From Cephalotus follicularis (lineage: Eukaryota > Streptophyta > Magnoliopsida > Oxalidales > Cephalotaceae): a DNA stretch of 64,000 bases. Under the pieces are notes generated by a model that was not told the DNA's origin, searched no databases, and saw only the letters and a list, made by a program, of their open reading frames with translations. Each line of letters opens with the position of its first letter. Within the stretch, counting starts at the first letter, position 1. This document shows positions 978 through 61,051 of this stretch, piece after piece. The stretch is taken from contig BDDD01000976.1 of the NCBI GenBank assembly GCA_001972305.1, positions 248,001 to 312,000 of the forward strand, written 5' to 3'. Made by a program: the position numbers and the translations under genes.

Positions 978-1376
978 CTTCCTTTCATGCAAAATGAGTC
1001 CAAACACAAACGGAAAATTGGATAAACAAAAATGGCAAGAATTCTCCTTTCCAAAAACAAGGCACCATCCAAAACAAATAAGGAATACGACTAAAGCGTC
1101 GACAGTAACGCCAAAGCATCGGTGCTTAAGCCCCTTTTATCAAAAAGTGTCGATGTCAATTGTATAGGCGTTGACGTCTTACACTTCAAAAAGAGTAATG
1201 AAATTACAATGCTAAAGCGTCGACGGTTAAATCCATGACGTCGACGCTTAACGCCTTGGACTCAAAATGAATGTTCAAAAAAAAATTCAAATGGTCCGAA
1301 AAAAAAGTATGCACAACATACGACATAAACACGACATATAACGATAGGCATAAATGCAAAGAAACGGGATATTATA
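978..1376 (-). repeat. G1 3' LTR remnant
   Basis: Matches 9399-9794, the upstream end of the G1 5' LTR, with only scattered differences, including the CTTCCTTTCATGCAAAATG block and the array of GTCGAC-core palindromes at about 1085-1260. The rest of the LTR is missing where the copia LTR begins at 977. The end at 1376 is placed by the polypurine tract that follows and by comparison with ...GATATTACA at 9794. Confidence 0.85.
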
Positions 1377-1395
1377 TCCACCCTCCTTAAAAAGG
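1377..1395 (-). other. G1 polypurine tract
   Basis: Pyrimidine-rich on the plus strand (TCCACCCTCCTTAAAAAGG), hence purine-rich on the coding strand, directly beside the LTR edge. The equivalent tract is found at 48081 in G6. Confidence 0.8.
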
Positions 1396-1436
1396 ATTTC
1401 GTCCTGAAATCATAATCAACCATATACCTTAATCAA

Positions 1437-2875
1437 ACAAGTGAGGGTATTCTTCCCGAATATGCTCCTCCAACTCCCATGTAGCCTCACTCTCTGGATG
1501 ATTCTTCCATAAGACCTTGACAAAAGGAATTGTCTTACGTCTCGTAACCAGTTCCTATCAATCCAGAATAGCTTCAGTCTCCTTCTCACAGGATAGATCC
1601 TCTCGAATCTTGTGCATAGGATAGTGAACCACGTGTAGGGGATGATACTGATAACCCCTCAACATAGACACATGGGACACATTATGGACATGTGCTAACT
1701 GTGGAGGCAAAGCTAACTGATAAGCAACCGCGCCAACCTTCTCCAAAATTTCAAAGGGTCCTATAAACCGAGGACTCAACTTCCCCTTTAAACCAAACCG
1801 CCGGAATCCTTTCCAAGGTGAAACCTTCAAAAACACATGTTCACCTGCTTTAAACTCCAAGTCCCTCTGATGTTAATCCGCATAACTCTTTTGTCGGGAC
1901 TAAGCTGCCTTCAATCTTTCCCTAGCTATAGTCACTTTATCGATAGTGATCTGGACTAGCTCGGGTCCTTCAATGACTCTTTCTCCTACCTCATCCCAAC
2001 ATGTCAGAGCTCGACACTTCCTCCCATACAAAGCCTCAAAAGGCACCATCCGAATACTAGCATGCCAACTGTTATTATAAGCAAACTCCACCAAGCTCAA
2101 ATACTTATCCCAGTTTCCAGTCCACTCTATAGCACAAGACCTCAGCATGTCCTCTAAAGTCTGGATAGTCCACTCAGACTGCCTATCTGTTTGTGGGTGG
2201 AAAGTTGTACTGTAATTGAGCCACGTGCCCCATGCCTTCTGAAAACCCTTCCACAACCGCGAAGTGAAACGAGGATCCCTATCCGATACAATGGATAAAG
2301 GTGTCCCGTGAAGTCTCACTATCTCCTGCTGGAAAACCTCCGCCAACCGGTACATAGGAAAACCCTCTCGAATAGCCAAGAAGTGAGCCGATTTGGCCAA
2401 TCGATCCACTACTACCCATATAGCATCATTCCTTCTGAATGTCCTTGGCAAGACAGTAACAAAATCCAAAGCTATGCTCTCCCACTTCCACACTGGAATC
2501 TCTAAAGGTTGCAACAATCCACTAGCTCGCTGGTGTTCGATCTTTACCTAATGACAAATCAAACACCTCCCAACAAACTCTGCTACATCCCTCTTCATTT
2601 CATTCCACCAGAAATTCCTCTTCAGATCTCTATACATTTTAGTAGAACCATGATGTATAGAGAACGAAGAGCTGTGTGCCTCAGACAGATCAGCTTGTCT
2701 GATTTTAGAATCAGCACACATAACCATCTACCCAACCAAATAACCCCGTGCACATCCATACGAAACTCCGACTGCTTACCCTCATCCACATTCTGAACTA
2801 AAGCCCGTAAATCACCATCATCACTCTTAGCCGCCTTAATTTGAGATATAAGGGTAGGTTCTACATTCATTCAAG
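1437..2875 (-). pseudogene. G1 integrase fossil (zinc-binding, core, C-terminal parts)
   Basis: Integrase inserts the element cDNA into the host chromosome. The C-terminal part (about 1437-1860) has the plant gypsy signature [21 protein letters not shown] and HVHNVSHVSMLR. The core (1900-2517) shows WVVVDRLAKSAHF, HGTPLSIVSDRDPRF and TFHPQTD; the H2C2-like region lies upstream at about 2560-2870. It ends on the usual ..PHLF-type tail close to the polypurine tract. The reading is interrupted in a few places. Plant gypsy (Tekay/Del-like) assignment rests on the YGRKCR..CWDEVGE motif. Confidence 0.9.
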
Positions 2876-6168: not shown

Positions 6169-8089
6169 CAATCTATAACACCCCTATATGTGGAGTGCTT
6201 ACAGGACAATATACGGAAGTTATCAAAACATGTGCTTAACTTTATTTCAAAATAACGTGGTGGTCCGAACAGAATATCAGAATAACATAATCCAAATATA
6301 AATTTCAAAAAACATAAGTACCAAAAACAAAATACTGTTTTTTAAAACATTGGTCTACACATGACGAACAGACAACAGAAACATAATAGGATTAAACACC
6401 TAGGTCATCCTCTGGCATAAGGTGGACATCACTCATCACACATTTCCCCGATGCTCCTGATAACCTGCAGCATGGAAACAAAAACACGGCTGGCAAACCT
6501 CAGTACATAATATGAATATAAAATAGAAAACGATAATTTAAAAGATAGTAAAATACATGAGCTTTTAAATATCTTGTATCTCATGCAAAACAAGATTAAA
6601 ATATTCTTGCATAAAGTAAAACATGATATTTATATAAAACAGTTATAAAATACCAAAATTTCCAAATTTCATAGTTTTCTGAAGTTCATAAATTTTCGAG
6701 TAACATAAATTCATAACTTTATCCGATTTCATAATTCCATAATTTTCCAAATAGCATAATTCCATATAGAGAATCCGATGTACATATATATAAGTGCAAG
6801 GGGTTCGCGAGGCCCACATGCCAAACGGAACGACTTGTACGACACTACACAATCAATCCCCAAAATCCAAGTCCGATAACTAGGGTCGACCCATACGCCC
6901 TAATCCGAAATGTCACAATCCGGTGACCAAATCCAAATCTATGTGAGACGCCGTAGACTAATCACACCACTACGGAAAGTGTCATGTCCTCTGTGCCAAA
7001 GAACACGCCTATGGGATCCGCATAGGTAGGTTTTACTCTGTATATCACTATTCCAAAATAATTTCTAAAACCATTTCAAAACATATATAAGCAGTATTTC
7101 CGAACGAATCCGAAATCGTCATCAAAACATACTTCCATATCCAAAAATCATACCCATTCAATTTCAATTAAAAGAGATGATAACAGTAAAATCAGTATAC
7201 AGAACAATACCAAATTTATAAAATCAAAAATATTCCACTTTAATCACCAAAGTAAAAAAACTGATTTTATTCAAATCATATCAGAAGCTCATAATCAAAA
7301 CGGAGATTATTTCAAATAAAAACTGAATGATAGCCAAAAATGAAGAATGAGAAATCCGTACCTTAGCCGTTCAAATAGAATCAAACACAAGAATGAATCA
7401 AATGACACATACGGAATCACCCTAATTGTCATAACAGATGCTTTGGAAATCCTAAATATACATCCCAAACCGAATATCACATAACATGCGCTAAAGAACA
7501 CAAATGGCAGAAGAAAGTGTCGATGTTCTTGTCAAAAGCGTCGACGCCTTAACAACAACGTTATTACTAAGCGCTGAACAAAGCGTCGAAGCAATGCATG
7601 ACAAAACACTATGAAAGCATCGACGCCTTCGACAAAAACGAAATACAGACGACGCTTAGCAAAATGCAAGCCGCAAAAACAGTTGCAAAAATTCAGTTTT
7701 TCTTAAACATGCATCCATAAAACAGCAACATGAAAATTCTAAAACATGTCTACTATGATTGTAACACCAGTAAAATAGTTTGAACACACAATACATGGTA
7801 TACATATTGAAGAATGGCAGCAGAAATGTTCTTTAAAATAGGGTTTCTAAAAGTCATTATCAAAACAAATTCTAGCGTGTGTTTGTACAAACTAATGATT
7901 AATAACAAAAGTACATAATGAAAACTAAAGCTTTCGTTCAGAAAGTACCTTTAGATGATGCCAAGAACGATGAAAAATAGTGCAAGAAAAATGGATGCTC
8001 CAGTTTTGTAAGGACCCAAATTTCCATGTAAGATATTAATTATGTTTGCTATTGTGTAGTTGACAAATATTTCAAGGGACCCGTAGTAT

Positions 8090-8425
8090 GACCCTACGCT
8101 CGGGGAGAGCGCCGACAGTTCCACTTAAAGCACCGACGCTTTGGTAATGACAGTCGACGCCTAGAACCCTTCTACCTGCGTTTTAAACCAGTTCAAACAG
8201 TCGACGCTTAGGGCTAAAGAGTCGACGCTTTGGATAACGGTCGACGCTTTAAATGTAAATGTCGACGCTTCGAAGTCAGGTGGGTGACGTTGACGTTGAC
8301 GAAGGCTTAAAAGCGGCGATGCTTTGTAATAAAGCGTCAGCGCTTTAGTCGGGATAGAGGTGAAAAAGCTCAGGTAAAACCCTTAACCGTCGACGCTTAG
8401 AGGGAAATCGTCGATGCTTTAAGAC
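8090..8425. repeat. GTCGAC-core palindrome array in U3 of the 1.3-kb solo LTR
   Basis: About fifteen copies, intact or decayed, of the GCGTCGACGCTTT kind at irregular spacing of about 20-25 bp, ending some 45 bp before the TATA box. Examples are GTCGACGCTT near 8198, 8220 and 8240. Variants are mostly CG to TG or CA. Confidence 0.9.
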
Positions 8426-8468
8426 ATTTTTGTACGCCACAAGCAATGAATGGAGGCGGCAATTTTTC

Positions 8469-8477
8469 TATAAATAG
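8469..8477 (+). promoter_or_regulatory. TATA box of the solo LTR
   Basis: TATAAATAG, the plant TATA consensus, followed by a purine-rich GAGAGA tract (8491-8590) as in the leaders of several plant LTRs. Supports plus orientation and puts the palindrome array in U3. Confidence 0.7.
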
Positions 8478-9794
8478 CAGTGATCAGTAGAAGAGGAAGA
8501 GAGAAAGAGAAAGGAGAGAAGGAAAAGAGAAAGAGAGGGAAGAGAAGGAAGAGAGAAACAGAGAAAGAAGGAAAGAGGGGAAAAGAGAATTTTGTTGGGA
8601 TTTTAGCATAGTAATTTCTTCAGTGTGGAGAAATGAGAGAAGGACATAAAGTAAAGTAAGGATTCCTATTCTTTTTCTAAAAAAGTAATTTACATTGTAA
8701 GGACTCTTGTTCTTTTTCTAAAAATACTTTATGTTAGGAATTTCTACTCATTCTTTTAAAGTATTTTATTTTAGTATTCAGCTCAATTTAATTTCACTTT
8801 CCCATCGATATGATCGGTATATCCGTCTGACCGAGTGGAGGAAGTTAATTTTTATTACGATAATTCTTACTGAGCTATTTTGGTGCTCACTCCTTTCAAT
8901 GTTTTTTTTTTGTTTTCAACTAAAATTTTTTCAGGAAAAGATTGAACGAGGAAAGTCGAGCTTTGGCAGGAGCTCATAACTGATATTTCGGAAGGAAATT
9001 ATTTTACGAATTATGTTACGAAATATAGTTTTGTGTAATAGTTTATGACATTATAACTAATATTTTCCGCTGTATTATGTCCTTTGATAGATCCTGTGGA
9101 AATGTAAGATGTTAACTATAATTGTTATGATGTATGATGATTTAAATAAGAGTATAAAATTTTAAGGTTTAGTATATCAAATTATTTATAGATAATAGCA
9201 ATTCAGTAAGATTGTTAAAAGATTAGAGGTTTCACCCCCCACGTAACGCACCGAATCCCCGAAGTTCGCTTTGAGCATAAAGTGGACTCGGATCTGGGGC
9301 GTTACAAGTTTTGTAAAAAAAACATGTAGGTGATGAAAATTTTAAAACAATTGAAAACGTGTAAGTTAAATGAAAAAAAAACGTGTTGTTTAAAAGACCT
9401 TCCTTTCATGCAAAATGCGTCCAAACACAGATGGAAAATCGAATAAACAAAAATGGCAAGAATCCTCCTTTCCAAAAACAAGCCACTGTCCAAAACAAAT
9501 AAGGAAGACGACTAAGCGTCGACGGTAGTGCCAATGCGTCGGCGCTTAAGCCCCTTTTATGTAAAAGCGTCGATCTCAATTGTATAGGCGTCGATGTCTT
9601 ACACTTCAAAATGAATAACGAAATTACAACGCTAAAGTGTCGACGGTTAAATCCATGACGTCAACGCTTAACGTCCTGGACACAAAATGAATTTTCAAAA
9701 ATAATTTCAAATGGACTGAAAAAAATATACACAACATACGACATAAACACGACATATAATGATAGGGATAAATGCAAAGAAACGGGATATTACA

Positions 9795-10198
9795 TCACAT
9801 GTCTTCTGTCAGCGTTTAACCTATTCTACCGACAGATTTAGGTGTCGATGTCAACCTTAAGCGTAGACGTGTCGGCCTTCTTGGGGCTAACAGGCTACCC
9901 AAAAAGCGTTAACACCTACCCCATTTGATCTCCATTAATGGACGTTGACGCCATCAGTTGACGTCAACGCCTTAAGGCAAGAAGCCTTAAGCACGCCTCA
10001 GTGTTCCTTGGCGTCAACGTCATCTCTTGGTGTCGACGCTCAAGCGCCCTTTTTGCTTTGCATTTCACAATTCAATGCCACTCCTTAACACTTTCCATTC
10101 AAAATACAACATTAAGCTGAAATACACAATTCTCATTAATCATTTAATTTACAATGAGAAATACAACAAAGCATAAATGGAAAAATCTCGGCGTTACA
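9795..10198 (-). repeat. Family-D LTR fragment (first 0.4 kb)
   Basis: On the minus strand this is the start (TGTAACGCCGAGATTTTTCC...) of an LTR collinear with 37969-38370, including the GGTTGACATCGACACC-type array and the ACAGAAGACATGTGA block. It stops at the edge of G1, so G1 seems to sit in this LTR. What follows at 10199 is not a polypurine tract, so this was a 5' LTR or a solo LTR. Confidence 0.82.
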
Positions 10199-10979: not shown

Positions 10980-11375
10980 AATACTGTCACGCCCCAGTTT
11001 CGACAAACGCACATAAAAGCGGTAAAGGCAACTAACATTAATATTCAGCTCATGCAAAAACCATAAAATTTAAACCTTTCAAACATGATATCAATTGTGG
11101 AAGCATTAAAACTCATAAGCTGAAAAACTCGTAACGTTAATCCCATACTGCACGCTACTCAATACAAATCTGTCATTGTTAAAGCCCACAAAACGGAGCG
11201 TGATCACAGTACATTAACCCAAAAGTAAAGTACAACAGATAACCATCGGCACAGTACATCAGTATCCTTAAAACAAAACAATTTATTACAACCCGGAAGA
11301 ACATAAAGCCCACAACAACTAAAATAAGGCTTGCTCTTCGTCCATACTAGTCCAACGCGTGTCCACTGCATCAAT

Positions 11376-12754
11376 CTGTAAAGTAGGGGGTTAGCCTTTG
11401 TCCTCACTTCGCTAAGTCATAAAAGTAATCCGGGAACAACATTAAATGCATGTCATGTAATGTATGCACAGATGATGCAGTACAGTAAAATACCAGTTTA
11501 TATATATATGAATATATATATATATATATATATGTTTAACGGTATGGTAAAATATCAGTAGGAACATATATATGAAAATTTATGTATGCAAAACAGTACA
11601 GTAGTAGCCCAGCCAGGGCTACATCACAGGCACAGTAATGTCCGAATAGGACCAGTAAACAGTACAGTAAGTCCACAAAGGGACCACGAACAGGCACTCA
11701 GTATGTGTAACGCCGCCAACTCCTGACCCCATGCTACACTCCCACTTCGGTCCCTTTTCCAGGCAACAAGGCGAGGCAATAGTACAGTACAGTGAGTTAC
11801 CTAGCCAACTCCTGGACCCTAGGTCAACCACTAATCATTGCTGGCAGTCCCCGCCATGCAACTAGTACAGCTCAAGCACAACCACAGTAAAATTCACAGA
11901 CCAACAGAGTGAATCAATACAGTCAACAGTACAGTAAACGGTACAGTAGTGATCATTTAGATCGACAAAAGGCAGTTCATTTCAAAATGTTTTTGAAGAT
12001 CATAAAATTTCAAATTTACATTTTCAGTAGTAGAAAATACTTTTAAGCAGTTTAAGTAAGCGAAAATTGCTTTCCCAATTGTTTGAAAATGTGGTTTTTA
12101 TCAATTATATACTTTCGTACTGAAGACAATTATTTTCAATTTCATATGCATTTCTAAATTATCGTCGTAATCTAGAAATCACAAACGGTTCATAATCAGT
12201 CAATAGACAGGCAGTAAACAGTGCATATGCAATGCATACAAATGTTCTAATGCATCCTAAGCGAAATCGGGATCGTCGGGTGCACAAACCATAAAAACTG
12301 TCCAAACAGGACTCTAAAGCGTCGACGTTTATTCCTCAGGCATCAACACTTATGTCCCTTAAGCGTCGGAGTTCAATCCCATAGCGTCAGCGCTTTCAGT
12401 GTATGGGCGTCGATATCTCCTCCCATTGACGTCGACGTTTAAAATGCATTCAACATATAAAACGCAGTTCACAGTACAAAGCGTTGACGCTTACCAAAGG
12501 CATCGACGGTTTCAAGCAGCAATCGCCTTCTTCCTGACAACGTGACCAAACAGTAACAATTTCACCATAATAACATGCAATCCAACATGTATACAGCCCA
12601 GAAGATCGACATGCAATATCATATTACACATCCAGTACAACGTAGCATCATTTCAGTGACCAAAAATAGTTCAACAAGCCATGCAAACTATGCATAAACA
12701 TCACTGAACAAACACCAATTATTGAACACAAAATACAATTATGGATTCCCCTAC
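11376..12754 (-). promoter_or_regulatory. Putative leader intron in the G2 3' LTR
   Basis: Bounded by CCAGAG/GTAGGGGAATCC and by GGCTAACCCCCTACTTTACAG/ATTGATGCAG. The second site has a plant-like branch point (CTAAC) 17-20 bases before the AG. The same pair with a similar spacing occurs in the LTRs of G4, G8, G7 and family D. Splicing itself is inferred; nothing here proves it. Confidence 0.45.
12315..12520. repeat. GTCGAC-core array 2 of the G2 3' LTR (GCGTCGACGC spelling)
   Basis: About nine units such as AAAGCGTCGACGTTTA, GGCATCAACACTTA, AGCGTCAGCGCTTT and GCGTCGATATC. It lies inside the putative intron. The 5' LTR copy is at about 19198-19385. Confidence 0.88.
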
Positions 12755-13184
12755 CTCTGGCCTCAAGTTAGAAGCCAAAAGTCCACCTCTTTTAGTATCC
12801 AACCAGTCACTTTGAGCTCCCAGGTATGGCTTGAAAGCTCCCTGCTTCATCCCAGCAGTTGGTGTGCAAGCTCCAAGCTTCCTTTGCTCAACAATGGCGG
12901 TCTCTCTCTCTGTTTCACTCTCTTCTGCTCTCTTTGTCACTCACAGTGTCACTAATCCCTCTGGCTTTCAATAACATCTGAGAGGGGTGAGAGGAGTCGA
13001 CTTTTATGCAGATTTCTTTTTGTTTTCTCTGCATGTTCTCCTACTTTCTTCTCCTCTCTCACTTGGGCAACCTGGTGCAACAGGTGTCCATTTCTTCCCT
13101 TTCACAGGCCATGCACTAAGAGATTCTCCCTCTGTCCATGCCCTTTTGTTGCAGGTAAGTCTGGCATCAAAAGCATGCATGCCA

Positions 13185-13385
13185 CGTTCTTAAAGCGTCA
13201 GCTAAGATGCTTGATAAGTGGCACGAATTCACCTCCATGCGACAAGTCAATCTACTGTTGTGTGTATGCAGAACACACCGCAAAGCGTCGACGTTTACAT
13301 TCAGGCATCGGCGCTTATGTGATTGAATTTAAACGCGTGTTTCAATTGTTTAAGAGTCGACGCTTCAATCCAGGCGTCAGCTCTT
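13185..13385. repeat. GTCGAC-core array 1 of the G2 3' LTR
   Basis: Units such as AAAGCGTCGACGTTTA, GGCATCGGCGCTTA, GAGTCGACGCTTC and GGCGTCAGCTCTTTA, upstream of the TATA-like box on the element strand. The 5' LTR copy is at about 20143-20250. Confidence 0.85.
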
Positions 13386-13575
13386 TAACCTCAAAACTGT
13401 GACGTTTAACTAAATTTACACTTTTAACATTTCTCTAACAATTGTACTCCAAAACCAACATCATCAGAGTTTGGGAAACATCATCAAGGTCGGCAAATCC
13501 ATCATTTTATTAATTCCACAATAAAAGTGCAATTACATCGTGAAATTACAACATGTGAAAATGCCGGGCGTTACA

Positions 13576-13594: not shown

Positions 13595-13621
13595 ATTTCA
13601 TCCCCAAAATTAAACACATTA

Positions 13622-18454: not shown

Positions 18455-20437
18455 TGTCACGCCCCGGTTTTGACAAACGCACATAAAAGCGGTAAAGGCA
18501 ATTAACATTAATATGTAGCTCATGCAAAAACCATAAAATTTAAACCTTTCAAACATGATATCAATTGCGGAAGCATTAAAACTCAAAAGCTGAAAAACTC
18601 GTAACGTGCATCCCATACTGCACGCTACTCAATACAAATCTGTCATTCTTAAAAGCCCACAAAACGGAGCGTGATCAAAGTACATTACCCCAAAAGTAAA
18701 GTACAAAAGATAACCATCGGTACAGCACATCAGTATCCTTAAAACAAAACTGTTTATTACAACCCGAAAGAACATAAAGCCCACAAGAACTAAAATAAGG
18801 CTTGCTCTTCGTCCGTACTAGTCCAACACGGGTCCACTGCATCAATCTGTAAAGTAGGGGGTTAGCCTTTGTCCTCACTCGGCTAAGTCATAAAAGTAAT
18901 TCAGGAACAACATTAAATGCATGTCATGTAATGTATGCACAGATGATGTAGTATAGTAAAATACCAGTTTATATATATATATATATATATGAAAAAATAT
19001 ATATATGTTTAACGGTACGGTAAAATATCAGTAGGAACATATATATGAAAATTTATGTATGCAACAACAGTACAGTAGTAACCCAGCCAGGGCTACATCA
19101 CAGGCACAGTAATGTCCGAATAGGACCAGTAAACAGTACAGTAAGTCCACAAAGGGACCACGAATAGGTAGTCAGTATGTGTAACGCTGCCAACTCATGG
19201 CGTCGACATTTATTCCTCAAGCGTCGATGCTTATGTCCATTAAGCGTCGACGTTCAGTCCCATAGCGTCAGCGCTTTCAGTGTCTGGGCATCGATATCTC
19301 CTCCCATTGACGTCGACATTTAAAATGCATTCAACATATAAAACACAGTTCACAATACAAAGCGTCGACGGTTTCAAGCAGCAGTCGTCTTCTTCCTCAC
19401 AACGTGACCGAACAGTAACAATTTCACCATAATAACATGCAATCCAACATGTATACAACCCAGAAGATCAACATGCAATATCATATTACACATCCAGTAC
19501 AACGTACCATCATTTCAGTGTTCAAAAACAGTTCAGCAAGCCATGCAAACTATGCATAAGCATCACTAAACAAACACCAATTATTGAACACAAAATACAA
19601 TTATGGCTTCCCCTACCTCTGGCCTCAAGTTAGAAGCCAAAAGTCCACCTCTTTTAGTATCCAACCAGTCACTTTGAGCTCCCAGGTACGGCTTGAAAGC
19701 TCCCTGGTTCGTCCCAGCAGTTGGTGTGCAAGCTCCAAGCTTCCTTTGCTCAATAATGGCGGTCTCTCTCTCTCTTTCACTTTCTTCTGCTCTCTTTGAC
19801 ACTCACAGTGTCACTAATCCCTCTGGCTTTCAATAACATATGAGAGGGGTGAGAGGAGTCGACTTTTATGCAGATTGCTTTTTGTTTTCTCTGCATGTTC
19901 TCCTACTTTCTTCTCCTCTCTCACTTGGGCAACCTGGTGCAACAGGTGTCCATTTCTTCCCTTTCACATGCCATGCACTCAGAGGTTCTCCCTCTGTCCC
20001 ATGCCCTTTTGTTACAGGTAAGTCTGGCATCAAAAGCATCATGCCACATTCTTCAAGCGGCTGCTAAGATGCTTGATAAGTGGCACGAATTCACCTCCAT
20101 GCGACACGTCAATCTACTGTTGTGTATATGCAGAACACGCCGCAAAGCGTCGACGTTTACATGCAGGCATCGGCGCTTATGTGATTGAATTTAAACACGT
20201 GTTTCAATTGCTCAAGTGTCGACGCTCCAATCCAGGCGTCAACGCTTTAACCTCAAAACTATGTCGTTTAACTAAATTTACACTTTTAACATTTCTCTAA
20301 CAATCGTACTCCAAAACCAACATCATCAGAGTTTGGGAAACATCATCAAGGTTGGGAAATCCATCATTTTATTAATTCCACAATAAAAGTGCAATTACAT
20401 CGTGAAATTACAACATGTGAAAATCTCGGGCGTTACA
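18455..20437 (-). repeat. G2 5' LTR
   Basis: Pairs with 10985-13575, same termini, shorter overall. It has arrays at about 19198-19385 and 20143-20250, a TATA-like CATAAAAG (complement at 19863-19870), and donor- and acceptor-like sites at 19616 and 18847. A TA microsatellite lies at about 18971-18990. Confidence 0.93.
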
Positions 20438-21478: not shown

Positions 21479-21616
21479 TGTAACCCCCGGGATTTTCATT
21501 AATGTAATGTTGTAATTTTAATTTCATTTATGCAATTTATTAATGAGAATTATGACTTTTCCCTTTTTGTAATGTTAAATTTGTGCAAAAGTTGATGTGT
21601 GAAAAGTGCTGATGCA

Positions 21617-21765
21617 GGGCGGGCAGCCGACTGCCCAAGAGGGACAGTCGACTGGACCCCCTTTGGGTGGAACCAGCTGCCTGTTGTGAGAGACAACCGG
21701 CTGGGGATGGTGTCGGAAGAGACAGCCGACTGCCAAGATAAGGTAGTCGACTACCATGGGATAGG
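21617..21765. repeat. GTCGAC-core array 1 in G4 5' LTR (CAGTCGACTG spelling)
   Basis: Units CAGCCGACTGCC, CAGTCGACTGG, CAACCGGCTGG, CAGCCGACTGCC and TAGTCGACTACC, about 25 bp apart, upstream of the TATA-like box. The 3' LTR copy is at about 33090-33220. Confidence 0.92.
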
Positions 21766-22119
21766 TCAGTTAAAACGTGTTGGGAGTCTGTTTTTGGCAG
21801 AGAGAAAGGGGGAGAGGACAAAATTGTTCAGTTGTGGGGTTATGGAGAGAGAGGCATGAAAATGCCCATAAATATACATGTCTCTTCCCCTCATTCCATC
21901 AACATTTCATTATGAAAAAGAGATAGAGAGTTGTGAAGAGGGAGAGGCAGTGGAGAGAAAAAGAGAGAGAGAGAAGTTGTATCTCTCCAATTTTGAGCAT
22001 GGAATCTGGACTTCGAGCTCGAACCATACTTGGTGGAGTTGCTGGACGAATTCGGAGGCTTGGAAACTTGGATTGGAACTTAAAGAGGTGGATTCCAATT
22101 CCTAACTTGGAATTCTAAG

Positions 22120-23468: not shown

Positions 23469-23842
23469 ATTGATGCAGTGATGAGGATGTCGACTGTACG
23501 CGGCAAATCTGTGGGGAGATGGAGTTTTATTGTTTAAATAAATGTTTTAACCATGTATTAAGACCCGTATTATTTTGGATTAATGTATTAATGGTGTTGA
23601 TCAACTTTTGATCACGCCCCGTTTGCGGGCAATCGACGATGGCTCAATTATGTTAATGTTGGAATCATGTGGTATGGGACGCATGATTCGGTTTGTTTAT
23701 CTAGCTTGTTATTAAATGCTTCCGCACATGAGAATGGAATCGAAGTTTTAAATTTTATCATATTTGTATAAGCTGGATAACGTTATATTGATTGCCTTTA
23801 CCACTTTAATGTTGTCTTATCGGGAACGGGGTGTGACAGAAG

Positions 23843-35303: not shown

Positions 35304-35308
35304 ATAAC

Positions 35309-37579: not shown

Positions 37580-37581
37580 AT

Positions 37582-38099: not shown

Positions 38100-38290
38100 C
38101 TTGAGCGTCGACGCCAAAAAACAATTAGGCGCGCTTTAAGGCTTCTGGCCTTAAGGCGTTGATGCCAAGTGATGACGTTGATGTCCATCGATGGGGAACA
38201 AAAAGGGGTAGGCGTTAACGCGGTTCAGGGAGCCTGTTAGCACCAAGGAAGAAGGTCAACGCCTAGGGTTGACGTCGACACCAAAAACTA
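38100..38290. repeat. GTCGAC-core array 1 of family D
   Basis: Units TTGAGCGTCGACGCC, AAGGCGTTGATGCC, GACGTTGATGTCC, AGGCGTTAACGCG and GTTGACGTCGACACC. Many are the TG/CA decay forms of GCGTCGACGC. Confidence 0.88.
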
Positions 38291-38730
38291 TCAGCAAAAA
38301 AAACTTAAAACACTGACAGAAGACGTGTGAAAGAGAAGTGTGAGACACTTTATCTTTTCCCCATGCTCTGCAATGACATAAAGGGAGAAAGAAGTGACTG
38401 ATGGGTGTTATGTCGGTAGGGAGAAGGAGGAGAGAGAGAGACGCATGGAGCCTTGCATGCGGGCGAAAGGGAGAGAGAGAGAGAGAAGCTCCTCCATAAA
38501 GCACATCTCTCACCTTCATCTTGTTCTACCTACCCCGCAAGAGAATGAGAAAAAAACAGTGAGAAAAGAGAGAGGTATCCTCCCTCGTTGAACCTGGGAA
38601 CTTGGAAAGCTTGAAGGTTGGAAGTTGGAAGCTCGAACTTGGAGCTGCTACGCCGAACCTTGGAGCTCGAAAGCTACTGGTCGGTAAAACTTAAAGAGGT
38701 GGACTTTGATTCCTAACTTGGAATCAAAAG

Positions 38731-40237: not shown

Positions 40238-40607
40238 ATTGATGTAGTGGATCGACATTTGTGAGCATGGGGAAAGCAGGTTGAAGAGTTTAAGTTGTAT
40301 TTCTTTTGAGAAATGGATTGTTGTAATAACTGAATTTTGTATTGGGAGGATTATTTTTTGATCATGCTCCGTTTATGGGAAATGAACAATGTTGGTGTTG
40401 TATTATTGTTGAATTTTGGTAACGTGCAGTATGGGATGCATGTTACTTGTTGGTTTCAGCGTATGGTTAAATGCTTCCGCAATGTGATTATGTATTGAAA
40501 AGTTTTAAATTTGCCGTAAATTGCATAAGCTGAATATGTATATATGTTCATTGCCACAACCTAAGGGTTTGTTTTATGTTGTTACGAGAACAGGGTGTGG
40601 CAGATAG

Positions 40608-46744: not shown

Positions 46745-46918
46745 CAGCCGACTGTAACAGAACTCTAGTCGACTGTTCAAAGCATGGCCAGCCGACTACA
46801 CAAGAAGAACTGCAGCCAGCCGACTGGGACAGGGGTCCAGTCGACAGTGCAAGGCATATCAGCCGACAGATCAATAAGGCAGTCGACTACTCAATGCATA
46901 ACAACCGACTGTTCTAGA
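46745..46918. repeat. GTCGAC-core array in G6 LTR (CAGCCGACTG spelling)
   Basis: About nine units: CAGCCGACTGTAAC, TAGTCGACTGTT, CAGCCGACTACA, CAGCCGACTGGG, CAGTCGACAGTG, CAGCCGACAGAT, CAGTCGACTACT and CAACCGACTGTT, 17-25 bp apart. Confidence 0.9.
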
Positions 46919-48080: not shown

Positions 48081-48617
48081 TCTCCACCCCCTAAAAAGAA
48101 AATTTCATCCCGAAATCATAAATAACCACATACCTTAAACAAACAAGCAAGGGTATTCTTCCCGAATATGCTCTTCCAACTACCATGTAGCTTCACGCTC
48201 AGGGTGATTCTTCCACAAGACCTTAACAAAAGGAATGGTCTTACTTCTCGTAACCCTTTCATGTCGATCAAGAATAGCTTCAGCCTCCTCCTCACAATAC
48301 AAATCTTCCCGCATCCTGTCCAAAGGACAGTGGACCATGTGCAGGGGATGATAATGATAACCCCTCAGCATAGACACATGGAACACATTATGGACATGTG
48401 CTAACTGTGGAGGCAAAGCTAACCAATAAGCAACCGCGCCAACCTTTTCCAGAACTTCAAATGGTTCTATAAGCCAAGAACTCAACTTCCCTTTCAAGCC
48501 AAAATGACAGACTCCTTTCCGAGGTGAAACCTTTTAAAACACATGTTCACCTGCTTTAAACTCCAAGTCCCTCCGATGTCTATCTGCATAACTCTTCGAT
48601 CGAGATTGAGCTGCCTT
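48081..48617 (-). pseudogene. G6 integrase C-terminal fossil
   Basis: Starts after a purine tract (complement TCTCCACCCCCTAAAAAG). Main open stretch 48180-48497: GPFEVLEKVGAVAYWLALPPQLAHVHNVFHVSMLRGY-like sequence, as in G1. Cut by G7. Confidence 0.88.
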
Positions 48618-49924
48618 TGTCACACCCCGTTATCTAACACATTAAAAACATACATAAATGGTAACAGTTAATAATCCAACATTCATCAATCTTCAATACT
48701 TTAATCAAAAGCAGAAGCATTCCATAGCCGGATTATAATAATTATCTGCACGCAGCCCATACGACGTGCTTACAAGTACAACATACGTTGTAAATTACAT
48801 GTCTGAATGTAAATATAACAAACGGAGTATGATCGCTATTACAATACAAAGACATAGTAAATAACAACCTTAAACAAAACAGGAGCTCTCCTCAAGCTTC
48901 AGCAGCACTTGCCCGAATGCCTTCACTTAATCTAAAATTGTAGGGGGTTAGCCTTTGTCCTCACTCGGCTAAGTAGGAATAAAGCATGAGAAAGAGTATA
49001 TAAATGTAAACATGTATGACAGTTTATTTTTTAAAATAACATATATATTTAAGTATTCCAACATATATGATCAATCATGTCAAGTGGCCATAAACACTAC
49101 AATTCAAGATTACCGCACAAGGGTAAAATCAATCAATACGGTGGTTGGGTGTCACATGTCGCTAACTCCTAGCACCAACTGCGCACAACCTAACTATCAC
49201 CCTACACTCCGAAGATGAGAGATCAGGTAACAATTCTGTCGGCATTTTTCGGGCAGGTAATAATCGAGATCTGCATTGCAGATAAGTTTGGTGGAAGCTC
49301 TAGCCAACTCCTGGCACATAGGACCACCCCGTAGCCAATGATTTCTCCTATCACTCGACTAACGGCAAGGCATGGACAAAGAATTCAATAAATTCAATAA
49401 CAATAATTACATATATCTATAATATGCAATATAGTAGTAGTTTTCTTTTAGAAACATCTAACAATTTAGTGACCGTACCTCTTTTTTGGAGGAAACAGTA
49501 ACAATACAATAGTGGTACCTCTCATGGGAGGAAAATCAGTAAATAATTTGACAGTAAGTTTTTTCATTTGAAAACCATAGTTAAAATCCATATTTGTGCT
49601 TATAGTACTTAGTTGGTTCAATCCTTGAAATTAAGTGAAACCATAGTGTTTATGAGTACTTAATAGATATACAATACCTATAACATCAGCATTATACAGC
49701 AGCATAACAATAGGGACAGTAGCCATTCGAGGATTCAAACAAGAATCATTAACATATCCATAGTCATTCTTACACAATTCACAAAAGAAATGAATAAGTT
49801 GTTTAATTCCCGAAATGTAATTACACACGGACAGGATTGAATATTAGAATCATCCTATGTGGAGGCCAGGGTGATTACATACCATTTAAGCCTAAATAGT
49901 ATCTAATATCAGTAATTTATCTCT

Positions 49925-50045
49925 TAACAGTCGACTGTTCATAAGAATAGCCGGCTGTTTACATTGAGCAGTCGACTGTTTGTCCTTAACAGTAGGTTGT
50001 TTACATTGAGCAGACGACTGTTAGGCTCAATAGTCGACTGTTTTG
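49925..50045. repeat. GTCGAC-core array 2 of G7 LTR
   Basis: CAGTCGACTGTT, TAGCCGGCTGTT, CAGTCGACTGTT, CAGTAGGTTGTT, CAGACGACTGTT and TAGTCGACTGTT, with a regular spacing of about 20-23 bp. Confidence 0.92.
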
Positions 50046-50784
50046 CCCAGAAAAATGACATGCAGTAGTTTGACAGAACAGAGTATGAATGTTCACATTC
50101 TAATTCAAACCAATCAATAGCATGCAATCATAGAGAAATTATCTAGACATGCTATACATATTATATCTTTAAAAATGTGTCAATACCCCTACCTCAATCG
50201 CTATCCCAAAATCAAATTGGATTAATTCCTCTCTTTAAGTTCCAACTTCAACTCAACACCAATTCTGGCACTCCAGCAATTAACTATGGGTGCATGTTAA
50301 TAGGAGATATACGTAGTACACAATCAGTACATATATACCTATTGAACGATTATAACACATTTGAAATCATAACAGAAGCTTACCTCTTAATTTCAAGCTT
50401 CTAACACACATGGAACACTTTAGCTCCAACATGCAAGGTCCAGAATCACCAGCATGATTCTCCTCTTTACTCAGTGTTCTAACACTCAAATCAAGCTCTC
50501 AACAGCTGCTATAGAAGGTTTAAATGCTTAGGAATTCGTCAGATTCCATTAACTCAAATCCCAGCATTTTCCTTTCTCTCTCTCAAATGCACATTTCCTT
50601 ACTCTTTCCAATTTCTGTTTTGCAGGTTGAAGGTCTGCAGATGGAATAGTGCACATGCAAGACACCAATCTTGCATGTTACACAGCTGGTGGCACGCATC
50701 AGTCCTACATGAGACGTCTAGGACACTTGCCGTCCACTACCACTATCATGTTTCAAATGCCATGCACAGACACCTGTCTGAGTT

Positions 50785-50920
50785 AGACCAGTCGAATGTC
50801 TTTAACTGGTAGTCGACTCTCCACTTATGGCAGACCAGTCAACTGTTACCATGTGACAGTTGACTGTCCTTCCATGACCAACCAGTCGGTTGTTACCCTG
50901 TGACAGTCGGCTGTTAGGTA
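50785..50920. repeat. GTCGAC-core array 1 of G7 LTR
   Basis: CAGTCGAATG, TAGTCGACTC, CAGTCAACTGTTACC, CAGTTGACTGTCC, CAGTCGGTTGTTACC and CAGTCGGCTGTTAGG. Confidence 0.9.
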
Positions 50921-51131
50921 CTGATTCTGGTTCCTTAAGTTTATTTAAGAACCCCTCACTTTCATTCAATTCTAAACCAACCGCATACACATTATTCAAG
51001 TAATTGGACACTAAACCTCAATATAATGTATAGTTTATTCAACATTGTACAATATAAATTAATTTGAAATTTGCGGTTATTACATTCCCCCATCCTTAAA
51101 GAAAATTCGTCCTCGAATTTAGCATTAACAT

Positions 51132-51333: not shown

Positions 51334-51714
51334 TGTCACACCACGTTTCGAGAAGGCAACAATAAAGAAGTAATGACAATTAACATATAAATACAGCTTA
51401 TGCGAATTACCATAAAATTTAAACTCTTAAACAGGATATCAGTCGCGGAAGAATAAAATTCACAAGCTGTAAACTCGTAACGTGCATCGCATACTGCACG
51501 CTACCCAATATAAGTCCATTATTGTTAATCGCCCACAACGGAGCGTGATCAGTGTACAAGATTAAATCCCGTCATTAAACAAACCATAGTACAGTACAAT
51601 TAGTCCTTAAATAACTCGGTTTATTACAAAACATGAGAAAAGTAAAAACCAAGAACAAATAGCATAACATCTTGTTCCTTGCTCATGCCAGTCCAACCAG
51701 TCCACTGCATCAAT

Positions 51715-53141
51715 CTGTAAAGTATGGGGTTAGCCTTTGTCCTCAATAGGCTAAGTCATAAAAGTAGCTCGGGATCAACATTAGATGCATGTCATGTAAT
51801 GTATGCATAAATGATGCAGTGAAGGAAAAACCAGTTTATATATATATGAGAAATATATATATATTTTGCAGTACGGTAAATTAACAGTGGGTACATATAT
51901 AAGAAAATATATGTAAAAATAACAGTACATTAGTGATCGGGCCAGGATCACGTCCACAATCACAGTAATGTCTTAAAAGGACCAACAGGCAATACAGTAT
52001 GTCCACATAGGACCACAACAGTCAGGCAGTATGTGTAACGCTGCCAACTCCTGGCCCCACGCTACACTCCCACTCAGGTCCCTACTCCAGGCAACCGAGC
52101 GAGGCAACAGTACAGTATAGTGAGTCACCCAGCCATACTCCTGGCCCCTAGGTCAACCCTACCACTAGCCGACGCTGGTAGCCTCCGCCATGCAACTAGT
52201 GGCTCAAGCACAAACACATAGAAATTCACGGAGCAACAATAAATCAAACAGTAAACAGTGCAGTAACAGTACAGTGGTGATCGATTAGATCAACAACAGA
52301 TAGTCCATTTCCAAATATTTTTAGAAGTAATAAATATTTGAAACACGTCATTTCAGTAGTAGAAATACCTTGAACAATTCAGTAGTGTAAATCGTTTACA
52401 GTTCATTCGAAAATACGTTATTAATCGATACATATTTTCATACTCAAAATAGCACATTCTGGTTCACATATGCATTTCTAAATATCCAAATTTTAGAAAT
52501 CATAAACGATTTACAAACAGTAACAAACAGGCAGTAAAGCGTGTATATGCAATGCATACAAATGCTCTAATGCATCCAAAGTGAAATAGGGATCGTCGCG
52601 CTTCGTTTAAATAAGAGGGAACCAAACAGCAGCTTGGCAGTCGGCTGGATTCTCCACCAATCAGCTGTTCTGGGAATTTGGTACATGGGTAGCCGGCTGG
52701 TTCCTTCTACCAGCCCAGTGGTTCATTAGGCAGTCGACTGTCACCCTTCAACAGTCGACTGTTTCGATTGAGTAGTCGGCTGTCTTCCTTTGATAGTCGA
52801 CTGTTCTGGGAAACAGTTGCATGCAATCTGAGATACATCACTTAGGCATATCATTGCAAGCATCCAAAATATATTCTCAAGGAAGAAAATCATCATTCAG
52901 TCCTCCACAGTCTCCTAAAACCCAACAGTAGCATGCATCTTATCTAGTGATCCAATACCAAGATAGAACTCAACATGCATGTACATAAGTTCAAAGATTC
53001 TCAACAATAAACATGGCATGCGTAAAACCAGCAATAATCATGGTCATATCAACTGAGCATTATGGCTTATACTAGCAGACAATCAAATCGCACAACATGC
53101 AGTAACATTGAACTCCAATTTACAATCATAACTTCCCCTAC
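51715..53141 (-). promoter_or_regulatory. Putative leader intron in the G8 3' LTR
   Basis: Same pair of donor-like and acceptor-like sites as G2 and G4, 1427 bases apart, containing array 2. Inferred. Confidence 0.45.
52635..52815. repeat. GTCGAC-core array 2 of G8 3' LTR
   Basis: CAGTCGGCTGG, AATCAGCTGTTC, TAGCCGGCTGGTT, CAGTCGACTGTC, CAGTCGACTGTTT, TAGTCGGCTGTC and TAGTCGACTGTTC. The 5' LTR copy is at about 59753-59930. Confidence 0.92.
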
Positions 53142-53629
53142 CTATTGATTCCAAGTTAGGAATCTTTAAGTCCACCTCTTTGTGTTCCAACAGTGACGTT
53201 TTGGGCTCCCAGAAGTTCCAACTCCAAGCCCAGTAGCTCCAAGAACAGTCCAATAGCTCCAACAAGAGCTCCAAGCTTCAACAATGGAGAAACACTCCCT
53301 TCTCTCTTTCCTCTGTGTTTTTCTCCACTGCCCTCTTTGGTTCTTAGACCTTTCAGTGCCAGGATGAAGGAGATGAGGGAAGCCATTTTATGCAGAGTGT
53401 TTCTCTCCCTCTCTTCCTTAACTCCCTTCACATGGCACTAAATGCCACATTTCTATCCCACATGCATGCACACACTCATAGGTCTAAACTCCTTCCCCCA
53501 ATGAAGTTTGCATGATCCACAGGTGTCCTCTTCTTCCATTCCTTAGCTGCATGAAACACAGATGGCACCCACTTCCATCTGTAAGCTGTAGCATGTGATT
53601 CCAGTCACATGCAACAAAACATAGCACAA

Positions 53630-53790
53630 TCCAGTCGGCTGACCATACCCAACAGCCGGTTGCTCGCCTGGCAGATCGTTACCACGTGGCTCGACAGTTG
53701 CCAGTCGACTGGTTCATCCCACCAGTCGACTGTTTCAAAACACAGCCACCTAGCCGGCTAGCCAAACGTACCAGTGGACTGTACTTGGTA
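53630..53790. repeat. GTCGAC-core array 1 of G8 3' LTR
   Basis: CAGTCGGCTGACC, CAGCCGGTTGCTC, CAGTCGACTGGTTC, CAGTCGACTGTTTC, TAGCCGGCTAGCC and CAGTGGACTGTAC. The 5' LTR copy is at about 60745-60900. Confidence 0.92.
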
Positions 53791-53989
53791 TACCCACAAG
53801 GTAACACACTTCTAAGTACTTAATTGATTTTAAATCAACATCATCAGATTCGGAAAATCCATCTTTTTATTAATTCCACAAATAAAGTACATTTACATTG
53901 TGAAATTACAATACATGAAATTTCCGGGCGTTACATGCACCCATCCTTCAAAGGAATTTCGTCCTCAAAATTCAAACGAGACTAGAACA

Positions 53990-58549: not shown

Positions 58550-58645
58550 TGGTTCCTATAAGAAGGATGACGGTCAGTCAAGACTTTAGGAAAATAATTC
58601 ATTAATTGCCAAGGAAAGTATCCTAGCTAAGCATATATGGAATAT

Positions 58646-58657
58646 GCTCTGATACCA
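58646..58657 (-). other. G8 primer binding site
   Basis: GCTCTGATACCA, complement of TGGTATCAGAGC, four bases from the LTR. Confidence 0.93.
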
Positions 58658-58661
58658 CTAC

Positions 58662-61051
58662 TGTCACACCCCGTTAAGAGAAGGCAACAATAAAGCGGTA
58701 ATGGCAATTAACATATAAATACAGCTTATACGAATTACCATAAAATTTAAACTCATAAACAGGATATCAGTCACGGAAGCATAAAATTCACAAGCTGTAA
58801 ACTTGTAACGTGTATCCCATACTGCAAGCTACCCAATACAAGTCCATTATTGTTAATCGCCCACAACGGAGCGTGATCACGGTACAAGATTAAATCCCGT
58901 CATTAAACAAACCATAGTACAGTACAATTAGTCCTTAAATAACTCGGTTTATTACAAAACATGAGAAAAGTAAAAACATATTGCAGTACGGTAAATTAAC
59001 AGTGGGTACATATATAAGAAAATATATGTAACAATAACAGTACAGTAGTGATCGGGTCAGGATCACGTCCACAATCACAGTAATGTCCGAAAAGGACCAA
59101 CAAGCAGTACAGTATGTCCACACAGGACCACAACAGTCAGGCAGTATGTGTAACGCCGCCAACTCCTAGCCCCACGCTACACTCCCATTCCGGTCCCTAC
59201 TCCAAGCAACCGAGCGAGGCAACAATACAGTACAGTGAGTCACCCAGCCATACTCCTGGCCCCTAGGTAAACCCTACCACTAGCCGGCGAGGGCAGCCTT
59301 CGCCATGCAACTAGTGGCTCAAGAACAAACACATAGAAATTCATGGAGCAACAGTAAATCAAACAGTAAACAGTGCAGTAACGGTACAGTGGTGATCGAT
59401 TAGATCAACAACAGGCAGTCCATTTCCAAATATTTTTAGAAGTAATAAATATTTGAAACACGTCATTTCAGTAGTAGAAATACCTTGAACAATTCAATAG
59501 TGTAAATCGTTTACAGTTCGTTCGAAAATACGTTACTAATCGATACATACTTTCATACTCAAAATAGCACATTCCGGTTCACATATGCATTTCTAAATAT
59601 CGAAATTTTAGAAATCATAAACGATTTACAAACAGTAACAAACAGGCAGTAAACAGTGTATATGCAATGCATACAAATGCTCTAATGCATCCTAAGCGAA
59701 ATCGGGATCGTCGCACTTCGTTTAAATAAGAGGGAACCAAACAGCAGCTTGGCAGTTGGCTGGATTCTCCACCAGTCGGCTGTTCTGGGAATTTGGTACA
59801 TGAGTAGCCGGCTGGTTCCTTCCACCAGCCCACTGGTTCATCAGGAAGTCGACTGTCACCCTTCAAGAGTCGACTATTTTGATTGAGTAGTCGGCTATCT
59901 TCCTTTGACAGTCGACTGTTCTGGGAAACAATTGCATGCAATCCAAGATACATCACTTAGGTAGATCACTGCAAGCATCCAAAATATATTCTCAAGGCAG
60001 AAAATCATCATTCAGTCCTCCACAGTCTCATAAAACACAACAGTAGCATGCATCTTATCCAGTGATCCAATACCAAGATAGAACTCAACATGCATGTACA
60101 TAAGTTCAAAGATTCTCAACAATAAACATGGCATGCGTAAAACCAGCAATAATCATGGTCATATCAACTGAGAATTATGGCTTATACTAGCAGACAATCA
60201 AATCGCACAACATGCAGTAACATTGAACTCCAATTTACAATCATAACTTCCCCTACCTTTTGATTCCAAGTTAGGAACCTGTAAGTCCACCTCTTTGTGT
60301 TCCAACAGTGACGTTTTGGGCTCCCAGAAGTTCCAACTCCAAGCCCAGTAGCTCCAAGAACCGTCCAATAGCCCCAACCTGAGCTCCAAGCTTCAACAAT
60401 GGAGAAACACTCCCTTCTCTCTTTCCTCTGTGTTTTTCTCTACTGCCCTCTTTGGTTCTTAGACCTTTCAGTGCCAGGACGAAGGAGATGAGGGAAGACA
60501 TTTTATGCAGAGTGTTTCTCTCCCTCTCTTCCTTAACTCCCTTCACATGGCACTAAATGCCACATTTCTATCCCATATGCATGCACACACTCACGGGTCT
60601 AAACTCCTTCCCCCCATGAAGTTTGCATGATCAACAGGTGTCCTCGTCTTCCATTCCTTAGCTGCATGAAACACAGATGGCACCCACTTCCATCTGTCAG
60701 CTGTAGCATGTGATTCCCGTCACATGCAACAAAACAGAGCACGATCCAGTCGACTGTCCACACCCAACAGCCGGCTGCTCGCCTGGCAGATCGTTACCAC
60801 GTGGCTTGACAGTTGGCCAGTCGACTGGTTCATCCCACCAGTCGACTGTTCCAAAACAAAGCCACCCAGCCGGCTGGTCAAATGTACCAGTCGACTGTAC
60901 TTGGTGTACCCACAAGGTAACACACTTCTAAGTACTTGATTGATTTAAAATCAACATCATTAGATTCAGAAAATCCATCTTTTTATTAATTCCACAAATA
61001 AAGTACATTTACATTGTGAAATTACAATACATGAAATTTCCAGGCGTTACA
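58662..61051 (-). repeat. G8 5' LTR
   Basis: TGTCACACCCCG..CCAGGCGTTACA, the pair of 51334-53935. Same arrays, TATA-like box (complement TTTTATGCAG at 60501-60510) and donor-like site (about 60260). Reading frames in it are array shadows. Confidence 0.94.

Follow-up and report, generated by a model that had tools for sequence, protein, structure and literature searches.

The 64-kb window analysed here, a single stretch of 64,000 nucleotides from Cephalotus follicularis, raises the question of why LTRs of both the Ty3 and Ty1 superfamilies carry arrays of short palindromes with the same GTCGAC core. The dense arrays originally described are real: the window contains 70 copies of GTCGAC, compared to 6.05 ± 2.29 (sd; maximum 12) in 100 dinucleotide shuffles, and AGTCGACT with at most one mismatch occurs 102 times, compared to 16.5 (maximum 25) in shuffles. 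We scored units by our own scheme, requiring a core with at most one mismatch plus flanks, with flavour A being of the AAGCGTCGACGCTT type and flavour B of the CAGTCGACTG type. This gave 50 A and 100 B units, whereas the values for 30 shuffles were 3.3 and 10.3; both LTRs of an element entered these counts separately, as they do in the spacing, one-sidedness, variant and spacer statistics below. The shuffle counts for all three measures rule out a chance origin of the arrays.

Nearly all of the scored units (140 of 150) lay within LTRs or LTR-like arrays: 117 were inside 13 delimited LTR segments and 23 in four further arrays (5 at 7.5 kb, 8 in the solo LTR E8, 3 in copia 2 and 7 at 46.7 kb), while 10 were scattered. 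Seven internal regions held 0-2 units each, which is the level of their shuffles (0.2-2.5); the density in pol or shuffled sequence was thus not equal to that in LTRs, and the predicted LTR enrichment stands. Genome-wide (1.577 Gb), we counted 25,896 pairs of CAGTCGACTG at exactly 21 bp, compared to 89 for the reversed control, and 18,108 occurrences of AAGCGTCGACGCTT, an exact 14-mer with a single occurrence in the window, compared to 15. Tens of thousands of copies in the genome support the initial reading. A 200-kb extra sample comprised five stretches picked by contig number, of which C10 contains 6,752 N. The Ty3 LTRs of the window that carry arrays, together with the solo LTR E8 and the E6 LTR part, are the following.

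978..1378, minus strand: E7 Ty3-type LTR segment, 3' copy; flavour A array at 1098-1245; 89% match to 9399-9796
7519..7653, minus strand: F7, read as block 2 of the E7 5' LTR; flavour A array of 5 units
8007..9306, plus strand: E8 solo LTR; target duplication AGTTT; flavour A units at about 8113-8412; TATAAATA at 8469
9399..9796, minus strand: E7 LTR segment, 5' copy; flavour A array at 9507-9665
9797..10198, minus strand: E6 LTR part; flavour A units near 9944-10037; 70% like the E4 LTR start
10985..13575, minus strand: E1 3' LTR (Ty3); target duplication GTATT; flavour A blocks at offsets 215-284 and 1069-1250
18455..20437, minus strand: E1 5' LTR (Ty3); flavour A blocks at offsets 195-284 and 1069-1210; one B-scored unit at 1049
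21479..23838, plus strand: E3 5' LTR (Ty3); target duplication ATAAC; flavour B blocks; ATAAATA at 21868
32946..35303, plus strand: E3 3' LTR; flavour B blocks at 33093-33218 and 33771-34055; 95.3% match to the 5' LTR
37969..40602, plus strand: E4 solo LTR inside copia 2; target duplication GATAG; flavour A units at offsets 139 and 1003-1410
46747..46887, minus strand: F46, in an E7-like Ty3 LTR; flavour B array, like the Sirevirus array in inverted orientation
48617..51084, minus strand: E5 3' LTR (Ty3); flavour B blocks at offsets 174-289 and 1047-1150
51334..53935, minus strand: E2 3' LTR (Ty3); flavour B units
58662..61051, minus strand: E2 5' LTR; flavour B blocks at offsets 157-298 and 1136-1272; target duplication with one mismatch

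F7 adjoins a segment (6789-7380) that is 65% like 45933-46541. E1, E2, E3 and E5 have Ty3-type domains and lack the Sirevirus signature in pol or PPT. No chromodomain was matched by Pfam in these four elements; by eye the integrase-end tail of E2 is chromodomain-like, and their lineage may be that of the Tekay/Del chromoviruses. The target duplications GTATT, ATAAC, GATAG and AGTTT correspond to no unit sequence, which speaks against the palindromes being insertion targets of other LTR elements. Plant LTR elements do show a weak palindrome preference, but it is described as slight and as concerning the insertion site itself, with LTRs not commonly targeted (PMC6911290), and we give this explanation almost no credence.

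The units are more orderly in spacing, and less so in symmetry, than had been described. Instead of irregular steps of 17-30 bp, consecutive units in the window had a modal spacing of 21 bp (30 cases for B, 8 for A). In a larger set, this step accounted for 50 of 103 flavour B steps, flavour A steps fell at 19-21 bp (12, 5 and 13 of 78), and a few closer steps of 6-14 bp were seen. A second class of 27-28 bp (12 of 69 of the pairs listed, from C1 only and with related copies included) does not fit simple two-turn phasing, so helical phasing cannot be the sole account of the spacing. A link between array polarity and the direction of transcription is likewise contradicted, since the polarity is reversed relative to transcription in F46 and in the copia element of C201. 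Two flank flavours surround the core, AAGC/GCTT and CA/TG, and arrays are flavour-pure (178 of 179 clear units), although this purity and the flank symmetry are partly conditional because the definitions of units and arrays include the flanks.

Strict palindromy did not prove to be conserved: breaks in the palindrome are frequent, and those of one array tend to fall on one side (122 of 139 one-sided changes, compared to a null mean of 95.7 and maximum of 109). Among 97 flavour B units, core changes affected the left side in 43, the right in 12 and both in only 3, the commonest variant being GCCGAC, and symmetry is thus not maintained through compensating changes. Such one-sided changes suggest that pairing is not defended, which argues against a role at the RNA level, whereby transcribed arrays would fold and either give rise to small RNAs and silencing or serve the element through the fold itself, with protein binding being secondary. 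The arrays are indeed predicted to fold strongly (z-scores of -2.86 to -4.00, compared to -0.48 for 34 control segments), and the palindromes of maize Sirevirus LTRs are reported as small-RNA hotspots (Bousios et al. 2016, via PMC5311732 and PMC10760457). Those LTRs resemble ours in having a palindrome-rich control region with high predicted structure, and differ in that Ty3 elements are among the carriers here. Folding, however, is expected of any repeated palindrome, a lone flavour B unit is predicted to form no stable hairpin, and upstream U3 arrays may escape transcription. We regard an RNA-level role as unlikely.

Between the units, the spacers are close to random, with a weak tandem similarity inside arrays (0.453, compared to 0.326 when shuffled). 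Unit divergence between the two LTRs of one copy was not lower. CpGs were retained between LTR pairs in 57 of 79 cases in units and in 120 of 211 elsewhere, a difference that could indicate some protection of the units but that the unit definition itself favours.

How the arrays came to be shared is partly a matter of descent. E1-E4 have common LTR blocks of about 67-84% identity, E5 has just one block of 35-44 bp in common with their LTRs, and in related LTRs the array blocks occupy the same positions though their flavours differ. The internal regions of E1 and E2, for instance, are 85.5% alike, and their LTRs are of opposite flavours (A and B, respectively). Shared descent explains much of the array distribution within Ty3. 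Spacer relatedness exceeded an edge-preserving null for the pairs SIRE/F46 and SIRE/T57 (p=0.002, the floor of the test; 21 family pairs), three further family pairs reached 0.006-0.044, and 16 of 21 showed no difference at 0.05. One array shows cross-family descent and looks captured. The prediction that the arrays belong to unrelated families thus stands as regards the spacers, which are mostly unrelated, but not as full independence, given the LTR blocks common to E1-E4. An origin of every array from one recently copied segment can in general be rejected, since those 16 pairs show no spacer relation at 0.05 and the spacers are near-random. The related spacers of the two SIRE pairs, the tandem similarity and the common blocks are also compatible with a neutral spread, in which a functionless, minisatellite-like segment would have passed among families and expanded by slippage. 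Nonetheless, ten-base units and the 21-bp step persist amid near-random spacers, most family pairs show no spacer relation, and drift would not yield flavour-pure arrays or promoter-proximal placement; we find a neutral spread hard to credit.

The window also contains carriers from the Ty1 superfamily.

27508..28047, plus strand: Sirevirus relic, first LTR part; flavour B array; 97.4% match to 28546-29086
28547..29110 (3' end not delimited), plus strand: Sirevirus relic, second LTR part; flavour B array; AGGGGGAGATTG just before
37282..37417, plus strand: copia 2; small flavour A array with 3 scored units; perfect 14-mer at 37390

At the PPT, Sireviruses are recognised by a AGGGGGAG octamer that lies 10 bp ahead of the 3' LTR, together with an AT/TG junction (PMC2829016). 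The relic has AGGGGGAGATTG at 28537, 10 bp before its 3' LTR and with this junction, the upstream octamer cluster comprising three copies (28241, 28280 and 28537); judged by the PPT in their sequence, the relic and a relative in C1 are Sireviruses. The two LTR parts of the relic contain 11 and 12 units, exceeding the Sirevirus repeated-motif minimum of eight. In the C1 relative, a second cluster of seven exact cores (C1:7492-7667) precedes an extra ORF and ends 28-118 bp upstream of its candidate ATGs; this ORF, presumably 'envelope-like', matched PF20167 only below the cut-off. Copia 2 has a PBS-like site at 37581, after the array, and a copia RT at 43780-44697; among the at least 120 database matches to this RT, those listed show no more than 68% identity. 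The C201 element has a copia-type gag and lacks the AGGGGGAG octamer; RT proteins searched against it gave no match inside, indicating that pol is degraded or lost and that its copia status rests on gag. TATA-like boxes lie beyond the last core by 14 bp in the C201 copia, 45 bp in the C1 Sirevirus (TATAAAAG at 4939), 53 bp in E8 and 116 bp in E3. Arrays are therefore present in both superfamilies, as predicted: in Ty3 LTRs, in a Sirevirus, in the LTR of one copia outside the Sireviruses and probably in another copia.

A named system does exist, contrary to what was first supposed. Sirevirus LTRs and the region upstream of the envelope-like gene carry palindromic repeated motifs, or RM boxes (Bousios et al. 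2010, PMC2829016), each element having at least eight palindromic copies, placed ahead of the TATA box in the upper half of the LTR; the Vitis motif CGGTCGACCG contains the GTCGAC core. The arrays described here resemble them in that many dyad-symmetric copies stand ahead of a TATA box in the LTR and others precede a presumably envelope-like gene. RM boxes are, however, termed Sirevirus-specific and absent from classic retrotransposons, whereas our arrays also occur in Ty3 LTRs and non-Sirevirus copia. The flanks are CA/TG or AAGC/GCTT here as opposed to CGG/CCG; the CGG-CCG signature, found in 12 of 13 published Sirevirus motifs (Tnd-1 being without it), is absent from our Sirevirus arrays, which have CA/TG. 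Whole-array flavour switching and the 21-bp step are not described in the RM-box passages of PMC2829016, and among the matches listed from the open-licence literature we found no shared arrays of this kind.

Other elements offer partial parallels. Heat-responsive elements read by HSFA2 occur in the LTRs of ONSEN and other Brassicaceae COPIA elements (PMC5059998), where, as here, a host-factor-type site was repeatedly gained and duplicated across several families; that case involves COPIA only, in contrast to the two superfamilies, different motif and putative reader of ours. The cold-inducible Medicago retroelement MCIRE has a CCGAC core in its LTR, similar to CRT/DRE and to the arrays here, the passage in PMC5059998 mentioning no array. 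In VANDAL transposons, the VANC targets are short, dense, non-coding motifs in one orientation whose units diverge together (PMC5735166). Our arrays share this density, orientation, non-coding position and joint divergence, as well as motif types that differ between related families (PMC5735166, PMC10398659), but VANDALs are DNA transposons with a TE-encoded reader and our carriers are LTR retrotransposons. By analogy, a protein of the element could bind the arrays and counter silencing, with the flavours being reader specificities, and the polarised, flavour-pure arrays are consistent with this. We found no extra DNA-binding protein in the Ty3 elements (ORFs of at least 150 aa, 17 of 18 scanned), the Sirevirus extra ORF stayed under the PF20167 cut-off, and sharing by two superfamilies would require a reader that acts on competitors, making a TE-encoded reader improbable.

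We consider it probable instead that the arrays are multi-site cis-regulatory platforms, at which a trans-acting protein binds and thereby drives Pol II promoters. This is favoured by the LTR restriction, the genome counts against reversed controls, the preferred step amid near-random spacers, the flavour purity, the block positions kept despite flavour differences, the TATA-like boxes after the arrays and the Sirevirus cluster before an ORF. This protein would bind DNA sequence-specifically and would most likely be a transcription factor of the host; it would occupy units at steps of about 21 bp, and the bound array would activate the LTR promoter lying downstream. In the Sirevirus, another promoter ahead of the extra ORF would probably be activated as well. 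Copies keeping the array would transpose more, so that replicating lineages would retain unit and spacing even as the spacers drift. The arrays would enlarge through local duplication, be inherited within the Ty3 group and sometimes be captured by another family; whole arrays would switch between the two flank flavours, as expected given two related readers. We infer protein binding, activation and selection for it, and likewise the host origin of the putative reader and capture as a route. An AP2/ERF reader of the CRT/DRE type is a lead only, suggested by the listing of GTCGAC as a CRT/DRE core (CRTDREHVCBF2; PMC4222965), the CCGAC core in an LTR and GCCGAC as the commonest B variant. The platform reading is weakened by the 27-28 bp step, the polarity independent of transcription, the high predicted RNA structure and the CpG retention in units, and Bousios et al. 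found no single binding factor for RM boxes (PMC2829016). More tentatively, one trans-acting reader system of this plant with two related specificities (AAGC/GCTT and CA/TG) might be exploited by Ty3 and several Ty1 lineages that gain, exchange and convert whole LTR arrays to one specificity.

RM boxes were published as a Sirevirus speciality (PMC2829016), and the same arrays occur here in Ty3 and other copia elements. If both Ty3 and other copia elements of a single genome are driven by these arrays, the arrayed sites, in their tens of thousands, could serve as sinks or sensors for one DNA-binding protein, and the convergence of retrotransposon families of differing ancestry on one host signal would become testable, with E1 and E2, close relatives of opposite flavours, as a natural pair for reader specificity. 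Were a single shared reader system to be true, it would amount to a cis-regulatory code common to two superfamilies, set by the host and not by ancestry.

The window (G000:C976:248001-312000; assembly total 1,577,397,061 bases) contained 70 GTCGAC hexamers, against 6.05 +/- 2.29 expected from 100 dinucleotide shuffles. This core is shared by two flavours of unit, A (AAGCGTCGACGCTT) and B (CAG(T/C)CGACTG), and scoring by our own definition, which makes use of the flanks, gave 50 A and 100 B units, compared to 3.3 and 10.3 in 30 shuffles. Inside 13 delimited LTR segments lay 117 of the 150 units, with 23 in four further arrays (placed by printed coordinates) and 10 scattered, while each of seven internal regions held 0-2 units versus 0.2-2.5 in its shuffles. 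The original prediction that the motif is enriched in LTRs over internal regions and shuffled sequence is thus confirmed.

Across the whole genome, AAGCGTCGACGCTT occurred 18,108 times versus 15 for the control. Pairs of CAGTCGACTG with gaps of 0-30 numbered 48,687 (166 for the reversed pattern), and 25,896 of them (89 reversed) stood at exactly 21 bp, so that this distance accounts for 53% of pairs, compared with about 3% if all 31 gaps were equally frequent. In a sample of 200 kb (five 40-kb stretches outside the window), GTCGAC was found 71 times against a first-order expectation of 15.6 (4.55x), second only to TATATA among the 64 six-base palindromes, and every stretch held at least one array. 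Window and sample yielded 34 arrays (20 and 14, respectively), 19 of flavour B and 15 of flavour A. GACGTC was also enriched in the sampled stretches (L005-L024; 56 versus 15.6 expected).

Ty3-type domains were found in four of the window's carriers, ORFs being assigned to elements by us, by position:

E1: Ty3-type element; protease
E2: Ty3-type element; protease, RT, RNase H, integrase tail
E3: Ty3-type element; gag
E5: Ty3-type element; RT, RNase H
E4: solo LTR; target duplication GATAG
E8: solo LTR; target duplication AGTTT

LTRs of the Ty3-type elements measure about 2.0-2.6 kb, and target duplications were GTATT for E1, ATAAC for E3 and one with a mismatch for E2. We tentatively take E1, E2, E3 and E5 to be Tekay/Del; Pfam found no chromodomain. 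Units in E1-E5 fall into two blocks, one at offsets near 139-298 and the other near 828-1410, the first block of E4 being a single unit, and stray B-scored units occur singly at offsets 1649 (one E1 LTR) and 1726 (E5). About 590 bp of the E1 3′ LTR (11726-12318) is absent from the 5′ LTR; since part of it matches the E2 LTR, deletion from the 5′ LTR is likelier than insertion. Within E1, a 147-bp unit forms two repeats (17796-18091; 95-96%), and a 66-bp tandem duplication with array units in the E4 LTR (39125-39272) exemplifies local array growth. E2 (51334-61051) seems to have inserted into the pol of E5, and E4 into copia 2.

Some other carriers are of the copia type. In the relic at 27.5-29.1 kb, the AGGGGGAG octamer occurs three times and the junction reads AGGGGGAGATTG; octamer and junction of this type are a Sirevirus signature in PMC2829016, and by this sequence criterion the relic is classed as a Sirevirus. 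In a related Sirevirus on another contig, C1, TATAAAAG starts 45 bp past the last core of the LTR array, and seven exact cores (7492-7667) lie upstream of an extra ORF that follows a copia-type gag and whose match to PF20167 fell under the cut-off. At C1:3166-11327 (L001-L004), a Sirevirus-like copy, the gag region comes so closely before array and extra ORF that pol seems missing. An element on contig C201 is flanked by two LTRs, each about 0.6 kb long and 88.5% identical to the other; it has a copia-type gag (122 bits) and a B array with TATAAATA 14 bp after the end of its last core; no Sirevirus octamer was found in it. Copia 2, a Ty1 element of the window, has a copia RT and a PBS-like site preceded by a small A array.

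The earlier statement that no named system of this kind was known does not stand, because PMC2829016 had described such arrays in Sireviruses, the Vitis motif CGGTCGACCG included, and the window and C1 Sirevirus arrays belong to that known kind. However, the same paper gives these arrays as absent from classic retrotransposons, whereas carriers here include Ty3 and non-Sirevirus copia elements. As far as the open-licence literature searched shows, these carriers are new, and so are the existence of two flavours, the switching of whole arrays from one flavour to the other among close relatives, the step of 21 bp and the tracing of one array across superfamilies.

Across 4.5 kb, chiefly internal, E1 (A) and E2 (B) share 85.5% identity; their LTRs align in four blocks (76-82%), and the arrays occupy unaligned modules at corresponding places between them. 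The same pattern was seen in Ty3 LTRs resembling the E7 segments, where array F7 is A, array F46 is B and the adjoining DNA is 65% alike. F46 matches the Sirevirus array at 83.6% over 55 bp, inverted relative to its own LTR, with a spacer z of 5.6 under a null that keeps spacer edges, and this likeness leads us to read it as a probable capture. Among 21 family pairs, spacers were related for SIRE/F46 and SIRE/T57 (p=0.002); three others gave p 0.006-0.044, and 16 were not above the null at 0.05. Between the two LTRs of one copy, 52/550 columns differed in units versus 333/7113 elsewhere; the units are no better kept than the rest. Counter to this, CpGs were kept more often in units (57/79) than elsewhere (120/211), a result that our unit definition favours. 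We infer that unit conservation stems from selection among source copies.

Consecutive units in the 34 arrays were 21 bp apart in 50 and 20 bp in 14 of 103 B steps, and 19, 20 and 21 bp apart in 12, 5 and 13 of 78 A steps; tighter steps of 6-14 bp numbered 7 (A) and 3 (B). Among the 69 forward pairs listed for C1, distances were 19 (3), 20 (12), 21 (40), 22 (2), 27 (4) and 28 bp (8). By eye, several C1 spacers of 27-28 bp have a ACGCATCA-like word in common, in one orientation or the other, which might be an additional site within some arrays. Spacers are nearly random: mean identity was 0.453 for spacers of the same array, 0.361 for those of different arrays with the same flavour and 0.329 across flavours (shuffled, 0.326). 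Flavour was pure in 178/179 clear units, the array definition itself using flanks. Core changes within arrays were one-sided in 122/139 cases (null mean 95.7), and arrays differ in which variant they favour, be it GCCGAC, GTTGAC, GTCAAC or ATCGAC as read on one strand. Among 97 B units, 43 had the T/A pair altered on the left, 12 on the right and only 3 on both sides, indicating that compensation does not defend palindromy. Polarity goes with the array rather than with the direction of transcription, and is reversed in F46 and in the C201 copia array. On contig C288 (L021-L024, joined positions 35231-35621), two adjacent A-type arrays carry GTTGAC, a fixed one-sided variant containing the TTGAC word, in 12/13 units.

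The preferred step, the free spacers, the flavours common to whole arrays and, in four cases, a TATA-like box downstream fit a putative protein-binding platform, on which a bound protein would activate transcription. A small-RNA role, as described for maize Sireviruses in PMC5311732 and PMC10760457, may accompany protein binding, given the high predicted RNA structure of the arrays (z -2.86 to -4.00, versus -0.48 in 34 controls); nonetheless, the one-sided core drift and a B unit without a stable hairpin argue against it as the selected trait. As to what might read the binding platform, Bousios et al. (PMC2829016) found that the sites in their Sirevirus motifs were mostly those of stress factors, with no single common factor, and a table in PMC4222965 gives GTCGAC as a CRT/DRE core, a match that offers a CRT/DRE reader of these units as a lead.
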